Below, one piece after another: positions 39,859-64,000 of a stretch of 64,000 bases of DNA. The DNA lies in the NCBI RefSeq assembly GCF_021531055.1, contig NZ_JADYTL010000007.1:1-64000 (forward strand), in the 5' to 3' direction. The position numbers and the translations under genes were made by a program. Position 1 is the first letter of the stretch, and every line of letters begins with the position of its first letter. This DNA is from Collinsella tanakaei (GTDB lineage Bacteria; Actinomycetota; Coriobacteriia; Coriobacteriales; Coriobacteriaceae). The notes under the pieces were generated by a model that saw only the letters and a program-made list of their open reading frames with translations, was not told where the DNA came from and made no database searches.

Positions 39859-39921
39859 GGCGTGGAGATTCGCATCGGGCCGATGGGCCGATGGGCGTTC
39901 TGCTAGAATGCTCACTACTTG

Positions 39922-39997
39922 CCTCCGTAGCTCAGGGGATAGAGCACCGCTCTCCTAAAGCGGGTGTCGACGGTTCGAATCCGCCCGGGGGCACCAG
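39922..39997 (+). tRNA. tRNA-Arg (anticodon CCT)
   Basis: 76 nt with encoded CCA. Acceptor GCCTCCG/CGGGGGC, D arm GCTC/GAGC, anticodon stem CCGCT/AGCGG with loop CTCCTAA (anticodon CCT), T arm GACGG-TTCGAAT-CCGCC containing one A-C mismatch. Decodes AGG. Followed by a hairpin terminator and by a duplication of its own 3' end. Confidence 0.95.
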
Positions 39998-40216
39998 GGA
40001 ACAAGACGGCGTCGCTGCTGCGGCGCCGTTTCTCGTTTGTACGGCTCGCGGCGGATTCGAACCCGCTGGGGTCGCGAGGCTGTGCAAACGCGTGAGCGTT
40101 TGCCAGCGAGCGTGCGAGGGCGCGCGAGCGCCCGAAGCTGCGGACGGCGCAGCCGGACGCGAATCCGCCCGGGGGCACCAGGGAACAAGACGGCGTCGCT
40201 GCTGCGGCGCCGTTTC
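39977..40216 (+). repeat. tRNA-Arg tail element: duplicated tRNA 3' end and terminator
   Basis: 39977-40033 and 40160-40216 are identical over 57 bases: the last 21 bases of the tRNA (from CGAATCCGCC to CCA) plus the terminator. The period is 183 bases. The unique ~125-base core between them contains GGCGGATTCGAACC (40050-40063), the exact reverse complement of the tRNA T-arm (39973-39986), and GC-rich segments CGCGTGAGCG and GCGCCCGAAGC that also occur in the tail of tRNA-Leu (63759-64000). Confidence 0.93.
40007..40034 (+). terminator. Terminator of tRNA-Arg
   Basis: ACGGCG...CGCCGT arms with GTCGC/GCTGC-rich interior followed by TTTCTCGTTT. It is repeated identically at 40190-40216 within the tail element. 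Confidence 0.75.
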
Positions 40217-40668
40217 TGGTTTGTGCGCCTGCCCGCGGACTCGGGTCGCCGACATTCGCATCGCTAGTCTCCTCGTAGGCATCATTTTGGCTCGGGGTGC
40301 CTTTTTCCTTGCTTGAGAGTTTGCTTTTGGTCACGCATGGACGATTACTGTCATCGCAGGCTGACGGATGGCGATATTCAGGGTGGTTGAGCTGGCGGCA
40401 AGCAATATGCTTTCGCGAGGTTCGGCTGCCGGCTGCGCGGCGATTCGCAAAATGCAATATAAGATATCAATTCATATTATATCGACTGACGATCCCGATG
40501 AGGCGCTCGTGGGTGAGCGCCTCCATCCTGTCAGGAATCGTTCGTTGATGACCACTTGCCCCAAAACGAAGTTTCCCGTCCGGTTAAGTTGGGTTTAACG
40601 ATGCATATTCCGGGTGTATTCCGCCAAATAATGAATAGCGGGCGCGCGCTCGTTTCGAGATGTCGCAA
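40217..40668. other. Non-coding stretch between tRNA-Arg tail and XRE regulator
   Basis: About 450 bases. Frames present have no ribosome site and unusual amino-acid composition. A more AT-rich segment (around 40443-40490, with ATATAAGATATC and TTCATATTATAT) may be a promoter or remnant. I see no RNA gene, repeat copy or clear regulatory site. Confidence 0.5.
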
Positions 40669-63693: not shown

Positions 63694-63778
63694 GGGGGCG
63701 TGGCGGAATTGGCATACGCAGGAGACTTAAAATCTCTCGCCGTAAGGATTGAGGGTTCGAGTCCCTCCGCCCCTACCA
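63694..63778 (+). tRNA. tRNA-Leu (anticodon TAA)
   Basis: 85 nt with encoded CCA and a class II variable arm (CTCGCCGTAAGGATTGAG region). Acceptor GGGGGCG/CGCCCCT, anticodon loop CTTAAAA (TAA), T-loop GGTTCGAGTCC. Followed by a hairpin terminator and a duplicated 3' end. Confidence 0.94.
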
Positions 63779-64000
63779 GGTAGAATCGGGTCCCGGCGAC
63801 GGGGCCCTTTTTCGTTTCGGGCCCGTCGCCCGGACTCGAACCCGGAAGGGCGCGGAGCGTGCGGGCGCGTGAGCGGCCGCCGCGCAGCGCGCGAGGGCGC
63901 CCGGCGCCCGAAGCGGGGCGCGCGCCCGCCGGGCGCGCGGAGTCCCTCCGCCCCTACCAGGTAGAATCGGGTCCCGGCGACGGGGCCCTTTTTCGTTTCG
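63759..64000 (+). repeat. tRNA-Leu tail element: duplicated tRNA 3' end and terminator
   Basis: 63759-63819 and 63940-64000 are identical over at least 61 bases (to the window end): the last 20 bases of the tRNA plus the GGTCCC...GGGGCCC terminator. Period 181. The core contains GGACTCGAACCC (63832-63843), the exact reverse complement of its own T-arm, an inverted copy of the terminator arm (GGGCCCGTCGCC), and GCGCGTGAGCG and GGCGCCCGAAGC as in the tRNA-Arg tail. Confidence 0.93.
63788..63815 (+). terminator. Terminator of tRNA-Leu
   Basis: CGGGTCCC pairs with GGGGCCC around GGCGAC and is followed by five T. Confidence 0.85.

Follow-up and report, generated by a model that had tools for sequence, protein, structure and literature searches.

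A recurrent tail behind tRNA-Arg(CCT) of Collinsella tanakaei, probably a small protein-less mobile repeat anchored in T loops

Why would an intact tRNA gene have, just downstream, its own 3' end again and its own T-arm in inverted form? The question is raised by tRNA-Arg(CCT) in a stretch of 64,000 nucleotides from Collinsella tanakaei (the window; contig NZ_JADYTL010000007.1), whose relevant features are collected in Table 1. The direct repeat comprises the last 21 bases of the gene and the terminator hairpin, has a spacing of 184 and contains no mismatch; an earlier note on this DNA had rightly described the duplication, with the first copy one base off and one base short of the 58 bases. 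Its other descriptive claims hold. The copies are separated by 126 GC-rich bases that include an exact reverse complement of the T-arm, and the resulting unit of 184 bp leaves no room for an integrase gene. The note's option of an RNA that pairs with its host tRNA is conceivable, as each of the two 3'-end copies is a potential partner of this anti-T-arm. RNA folding of positions 39921-40220 gives z = -5.5, and the core alone gives z = -2.6 on the plus strand and -3.1 on the minus strand. On the minus strand of the window, open frames of 180 and 117 aa run across tRNA-Arg and its tail (39915-40457) and are likely spurious antisense frames.

Table 1 Features of the two tail-bearing tRNA genes in the window.
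Feature	Position	Strand	Basis
tRNA-Arg(CCT), intact, CCA encoded	39921..39996	+	ARAGORN; RF00005 59.9 bits
First 3'-end copy (39976-39996, from T loop), terminator hairpin and T run	39976..40033	+	58 bases identical to 40160-40217
Anti-T-arm GGCGGATTCGAACC	40050..40063	+	Inverted repeat, exact 14-nt reverse complement (100%) of 39972-39985 in tRNA-Arg(CCT)
Core common to different tRNAs	40060..40159	+	RNA fold; same-genome copies 91-95% identity; P2/P3 covariation
Core hairpins of the tRNA-Arg(CCT) tail	P2 about 40079-40107; P3 40118-40133; P4 40137-40153	+	Fold
Covariance-model unit of the tRNA-Arg(CCT) tail	40047-40171	+	Model R1
Second 3'-end copy (40160-40180) and terminator	40160..40217	+	Direct repeat
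Decayed remnant of an older tail of other type (degenerate anti-T-arm and sequence beyond)	40232..40290	+	By eye versus other Collinsella (L054, L056, L063, L067-L069, L071)
tRNA-Leu(TAA), second tail-bearing tRNA of the window	63694..63778	+	ARAGORN; tRNA-wide tail screen
tRNA-Leu(TAA) tail unit, anti-T-arm and core	63826..63949	+	Model R1, 59.3 bits
Second 3'-end copy of tRNA-Leu(TAA), 20/21 identical	63939..63959	+	tRNA-wide tail screen

A search of the same genome with the Arg(CCT) tail returned eight loci, and a tRNA adjoins the match in all of them. We screened all 50 tRNA genes of this genome for an anti-T-arm (at least 12/18) and a second 3' end (at least 18/21). Ten genes pass both thresholds (Thr-TGT, Val-TAC, Glu-TTC, Thr-CGT, Ala-TGC, Gly-CCC, Ser-TGA, Ala-CGC, Arg-CCT and Leu-TAA), with anti-T-arms located at +47 to +56 and second 3' ends between +159 and +175; Lys-CTT and Gly-GCC were left out of the count because they pass merely through a following copy of the same tRNA gene. 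The Leu-TAA tail lies in the window and is absent from the earlier note. In Ser-CGA, Leu-CAG and Gln-TTG the anti-T-arm is present and the core is decayed or the second 3' end missing. A complete unit has the order tRNA, terminator, own anti-T-arm, hairpin core and second own 3' end from the T loop. We also built a covariance model, R1, from 26 of 36 distinct units; because the RNAalifold structure on the MAFFT alignment was poor, its 21 pairs in P2 and P3 were written by hand and checked against slid controls, and three units (one insertion, one deletion, one near-duplicate) were left out of the alignment. In the C. tanakaei genome R1 identifies 13 units behind 11 tRNA genes and the tmRNA gene, whose tail is composed of its own T-arm and 3'-end sequences (L134, G000:C10:167300-169200, about 489-1110). 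For ten of 13 tails no other tRNA fits the anti-T-arm better than the host does; the exceptions are Leu-TAA, outfitted by 11 other tRNAs, and Gly-CCC and Ala-CGC, outfitted by one each. The Ser-TGA tail contains two different cores in succession.

Since the core recurs in the same genome and the layout is built from each host gene's own sequence, the tail is not a product of chance; it is a real, recurrent element. That the core is common to different tRNAs already disfavours a plain tandem duplication of a tRNA 3' end followed by passive drift, with the core incidental. Arrays with truncated last units resemble slippage products (by eye), but a structured core family with precise junctions common to different tRNAs, the covariation of that core and the same anatomy in other phyla all count against this explanation, which we regard as very improbable.

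The earlier note had proposed looking for the same tail behind other tRNAs in related genomes and searching for its core with a covariance model. Both searches were productive: the tail is present on many tRNAs of related genomes, contrary to the outcome that the note had named as refuting it, and R1 units are found in most genomes of the family. All of 20 further loci from other genomes of the genus, hand-picked from core matches, have a tRNA directly in front. Class-wide, R1 (run with stricter Infernal filters) matches 11 of 79 genomes, which are 11 of the 13 in the family of C. tanakaei (three genera) and none of the 66 others; two of the 13 family genomes contain no R1 unit. We examined 90 R1 units in 78 family loci, a set that was chosen, in part by tRNA instead of core, and that does not include every listed match. 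All 90 lie behind a host gene (86 behind tRNA, four behind tmRNA). In the 86 tRNA cases, first units start 45-65 nt past the tRNA gene and further units at 226-273, and the orientation is that of the tRNA in every one. The hosts comprise 22 tRNA species by anticodon, plus tmRNA as identified by ARAGORN or RF00023. That tmRNA is also a host suggests that the T-arm, common to both kinds of gene, is what matters for location.

The flanks match the host. The second 3'-end copy scores 16.09/18 against its own tRNA and 10.39 against tRNAs taken from units of another type (n = 86), where the highest value in 300 swaps is 10.80. For the anti-T-arm the corresponding scores are 8.10/10 and 6.63, with 6.91 as the highest value in the swaps; the four tmRNA units were labelled by hand and left out of this test. 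We interpret the tail as a tiny, protein-less, non-autonomous mobile repeat that is anchored in the T loops of tRNA and tmRNA genes and whose flanks are written from the target, with a probability of roughly 0.6. The mini-element with tRNA 3' ends as attachment site that the earlier note had considered thus survives as a recurrent element behind many tRNAs and tmRNA, with its anchor at the T loop.

Genomic islands in tRNA and tmRNA genes (Islander type) have several features in common with the tail, namely an intact tRNA, a displaced 3' fragment, the same orientation and tandem arrays, whereas the tail is 184 bp long, lacks an integrase and includes an inverted T-arm copy. The tail could accordingly be viewed as the relic or miniature of such an island, bounded by attL (in the tRNA) and attR (at the second 3' end) and moved by tyrosine integrases of the T-loop class. 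The available part of one source describes tRNA/tmRNA targets, regenerated genes, displaced 3' fragments, the T loop among crossover subsites and tandem arrays for islands, all in line with this view, and does not name an inverted T-arm as an island feature (PMC4383910). An incoming element would, however, carry its own tRNA end, and cores of 91-95% similarity sit instead on the own ends and terminators of different tRNAs; nor would 184 bp accommodate an integrase gene. Because similar cores carry the ends of their different host tRNAs, we rejected an integrase-made mini-island as the main reading and consider it improbable. At least one tRNA-island tool would discard such tails by length: Islander, as far as that part of the source describes it, drops candidates under 2 kb and requires an integrase (PMC4383910).

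The earlier suggestion of a docking site for larger islands found no backing, as no island lies inside the inspected tails. In a phage-like IMG/VR contig (L323, 9920-10730), a displaced tRNA-Ser fragment is followed by tail units, two of which match the RtT model discussed below; the fragment begins in the anticodon region and the tail lies outside it (both by eye). Viral contigs yielded no match to the exact core and a single contig with the three-part pattern described below, this same L323, in which ARAGORN calls no tRNA. Among 313 phage records returned by distant BLAST, none covers 80% of the query, and the eight best cover 24-25%, the tRNA part.

The core covaries as a fold. In 90 aligned units (88 distinct), 93.6% of cells are paired compared with 29-50% for slid partners, and there are 246 double changes compared with 71 in shuffles, both figures being based on an alignment that was fitted to R1. 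The MAFFT alignment of 26 units gives 89.0% paired cells (29-48% slid) and 61 double changes (at most 14). On the tRNA-sense strand, the inner P2 helix contains G.U 26 times and A.C never, with 21 of the 26 in one column pair; the outer P2 helix has A.C 16 times and G.U 6 times, and P3 has 1 of each, in regions where the alignment is poorer. Units of the broad set described below fold at -0.478 kcal/mol per nt, compared with -0.368 with shuffled cores. A P1 stem of at least five pairs between the anti-T-arm and the second 3' end appears in 68/90 folds of that set versus 158/270 with shuffled cores, a weak difference.

The main rival to the mobile repeat is a selected RNA role, which the strong covariation could reflect. 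The tail would then be a cis-acting RNA: upon read-through past the terminator it would fold with the T-arm or the second copy and affect maturation, termination or turnover of its own tRNA, and tails would be old, vertically inherited and homogenised by gene conversion. Consistent with such a role are the paired cells and double changes of the 90-unit alignment, the excess of G.U in inner P2, the uniform orientation relative to the tRNA, and the RefSeq annotation of E. coli RtT as 'processed from tyrT transcript'. The counts in outer P2 and P3 do not repeat that excess, though, 22 tRNA species and tmRNA have no obvious common regulatory need, many units are shortened or decayed, and tails are patchy by tRNA and by species, with a variable number of units in E. 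coli. On balance we think a cis-acting RNA unlikely and favour the mobile repeat.

Evidence on how cores spread comes from (i) the core tree, (ii) the tRNA-Arg(CCT) locus in other genomes of the genus and (iii) inverted copies in individual tails. The core tree contains a supported subfamily (95/90) of 19 rows from ten tRNA species and nine genomes, including the window's Arg(CCT) unit, and places Glu-TTC of three other genomes in a different supported clade (99/97); having few columns, it is mostly unresolved (12/81 inner branches starred, 40 open). One core subfamily therefore occurs on many tRNAs and one tRNA has different subfamilies in different species, from which it follows that cores moved, or were converted, between tRNA genes. 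Gene conversion between old tails is another way in which tRNAs could come to exchange core subfamilies. Presence and absence of tails differ between Collinsella species, and the Val tail of L103, like the Ser-TGA tail above, has two different cores in succession.

At tRNA-Arg(CCT), type I units are found in the C. tanakaei genome, G013, G021 and G022. Other genomes of the genus have no tail at this gene, or a different, shorter one consisting of about 26 nt of inverted tRNA, a short loop and a direct copy (L063, L067-L069 and L071, with one half present in L059). By eye, the Arg(CCT) unit of the C. tanakaei genome, G021 and G022 is followed by remnants of the older tail, so the unit appears to have been added ahead of that tail, along with a copy of the 3' end and terminator. 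In L060, from another genome of the genus, an apparent IS200-type insertion lies directly behind the tRNA-Arg(CCT) terminator (by eye).

In the tRNA-Gln(TTG) tail of the C. tanakaei genome (G000:C16:34287 onward), two 49-nt arms form a perfect palindrome around a 5-nt loop, running from the T-arm through CCA and the terminator stem and back; in G021 the arms are 51 nt long. In the 90 units drawn from many phyla, the spacer ahead of the anti-T-arm is slightly more like the reverse-complemented acceptor end of its own tRNA than chance predicts, at 6.39 of 14 compared with 5.79 (highest of 2000 shuffles, 6.16). The palindrome and the likeness of the spacer would fit strand switching at the terminator hairpin.

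The anatomy of the tail is already known from E. coli tyrT (Rfam). To our knowledge, the 178-bp tyrT/tyrV repeats (RtT RNA, RF00391; rttR/tpr) are known as a single locus behind tRNA-Tyr. In K-12 their layout is that of the Collinsella tails: a tRNA-Tyr 3'-end copy, a spacer, an anti-T-arm that is a 22-nt reverse complement of the T-arm at 86%, a core and the next 3'-end copy, with a spacing of 178. The Arg(CCT) unit has each part of the RtT repeat (the 3' end of the preceding tRNA, the anti-T-arm and the hairpin core); the difference lies in the hosts, which in Collinsella are Arg(CCT) and, genome-wide, many tRNAs and tmRNA. RtT is reported to carry a tandem GA motif (PMC7657543), and the purine-rich internal loops of Collinsella P2 look similar by eye.

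The RtT model gives four matches in E. coli locus L083 and no match up to E = 1 in five Collinsella tails (L001, L002, L005, L006, L008; cut-off 45 bits), and in 14 control genomes it matches E. coli only. Among six gammaproteobacterial genomes it has 15 matches in three, eight of them over the cut-off: five and nine in two Thioalkalivibrio and one in Aquisalimonas. The host is a Gln, Ser, Tyr or Arg tRNA for 13 of the 15, and the Thioalkalivibrio matches that exceed the cut-off have Gln and Ser hosts. In the remaining two, both from Thioalkalivibrio, the core sits inside the T loop of a tRNA copy (GGTTCGA, core, ATCC; by eye), and each interrupted copy adjoins a called tRNA of its own kind. 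In L272, the Gln unit has the altered anti-T-arm GGATGAGAA and GGTTCGACTCGAGCG in common with E. coli tyrT, and its stem letters fit tRNA-Gln. The number of units at five E. coli tyrT loci is 0 in EC958, where other genes come after the tRNA, 1 in 536, 1 in D10, 4 in K-12 and 6 in ET665; one further tRNA-Tyr locus was left out of this count.

For a broader view, named genomes were scanned for a T-arm, an anti-T-arm and AATCC at set distances, a pattern that fixes the central letters of all three in the resulting broad sample of at least 118 stretches. A stretch passed if it had a called tRNA, no opposing tRNA and a second own 3' end of at least 16/20. Among the matches listed, 90 of 118 stretches have the architecture, and they come from 11 named phyla: Actinomycetota (36), Bacillota (25), Pseudomonadota (16), Spirochaetota (5) and one each in seven further named phyla, with one unplaced. 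The single-phylum cases may be misplaced, since many are metagenome bins. Of the 28 failures among the matches listed, six face an opposite-strand tRNA and the other 22 have no called tRNA or too poor a 3'-end copy; among the 22, five reach 18-20 of 20 at that copy with no tRNA called. Taken alone, the 3'-end copy is present in 95 of 118 among the matches listed, compared with a mean of 0.4 and at most 2 in 200 swaps among loci with different ends. A strict form of the pattern matches 8 of 296 Actinomycetota genomes, with some matches reading the anti-T-arm from the other strand; read backwards, it gives no match in these 296.

Outside the family, R1 has 26 matches at E<=0.01 in 54 loci (the broad set plus E. 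coli), all of them 47-65 or 231-238 nt past a tRNA and none in E. coli. Since several are weak (Ruminococcus 4e-4, Ancrocorticia 1.5e-4, Clostridia 5e-3), a common origin of tails beyond their own family is suggested, not proven. In the portions of the open-licence literature that were available, we found no description of such tails, of host matching, of tmRNA hosts or of T-loop insertion.

The common part of the mobile repeat is a core of ~100 nt with three hairpins, whose left end adjoins a reverse-complement copy of the 3' T-arm half of the host gene and whose right end adjoins, at the T loop, a direct copy of the same half. In the mechanism that we envisage, the T loop would be the break or switch point. 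After a strand switch at the terminator hairpin, copying would run back through the 3' end as far as the T loop; strand or template switching would in this way generate the flanks locally from the target, the inverted 3'-end copy first and the direct one next. Insertion would leave an intact tRNA followed by terminator, anti-T-arm, core, and second 3' end with terminator, and the core would be copied to new genes beyond what gene conversion alone would do. Among the loci and genomes examined we saw no transposition event, circular form or moving enzyme. More speculatively, and with the odds in our judgement somewhat against it, these tails may be bacteria-wide self-spreading repeats with no protein of their own and perhaps no dedicated enzyme, in which the fold of the core induces a template switch at the almost universal T-loop sequence and each copy writes its flanks from the host tRNA or tmRNA; E. 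coli RtT would then be their best known, unrecognised member. With flanks that match each host tRNA, an E. coli tyrT/RtT curiosity and an odd tail become a class that is open to search, dating and testing. The class is relevant to the evolution of tRNA gene ends, to erroneous calls of tRNA and antisense genes, and to the question of how so small an element can spread and yet leave the gene it uses unharmed.

Candidate movers were sought among known systems. REP/REPIN elements are short structured non-coding repeats, dispersed between genes of all kinds and partnered by RAYT (Y1) transposases. The tails resemble them in being short, structured and non-coding, and the tail-bearing C. tanakaei genome has four weak Y1_Tnp matches; unlike REP/REPIN, tail units lie at tRNA or tmRNA genes in all cases examined and have flanks from the host gene. 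Eukaryotic SINE-like and tRNA-targeting retroelements, for which tRNA genes are safe havens, are likewise small non-autonomous units. The tails differ from them in joining at the T loop with an inverted copy, and the C. tanakaei genome yielded no reverse transcriptase match. Ten of the 18 genomes searched, G000 (C. tanakaei), G020 and G021 among them, lack PF00078 at E<=1e-5, so a reverse transcriptase is not required as the mover. Y1 transposase (PF01797) is found in 12 of the 18 and is absent at E<=1e-5 from six, five of them tail-bearing (G005, which has three units, and G116-G119); RAYT/Y1 transposase, an attractive mover in view of its pattern within the family, was therefore set aside as an explanation for every tail. 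With each family missing from some tail-bearing genomes, neither explains all cases. Weak Y1_Tnp matches occur in seven of the eight tail-bearing family genomes tested, and the tail-less G081 and G098 have none of the weak kind (G098 has one strong match). Outside the family, four of eight tail-bearing genomes have Y1 matches and four (G116-G119) have none. The four diverged Y1-type genes of the C. tanakaei genome, 246-277 aa long, are weak PF01797 matches at C8:234609, C9:168828, C13:139834 and C13:15500. One of these genes is situated some 2 kb behind the tRNA-Lys cluster. By eye, the downstream flanks of L003 and G000:C2:53521 contain long intergenic palindromes with GGGACAGGCAC-type arms, which may be substrates of these Y1 enzymes.
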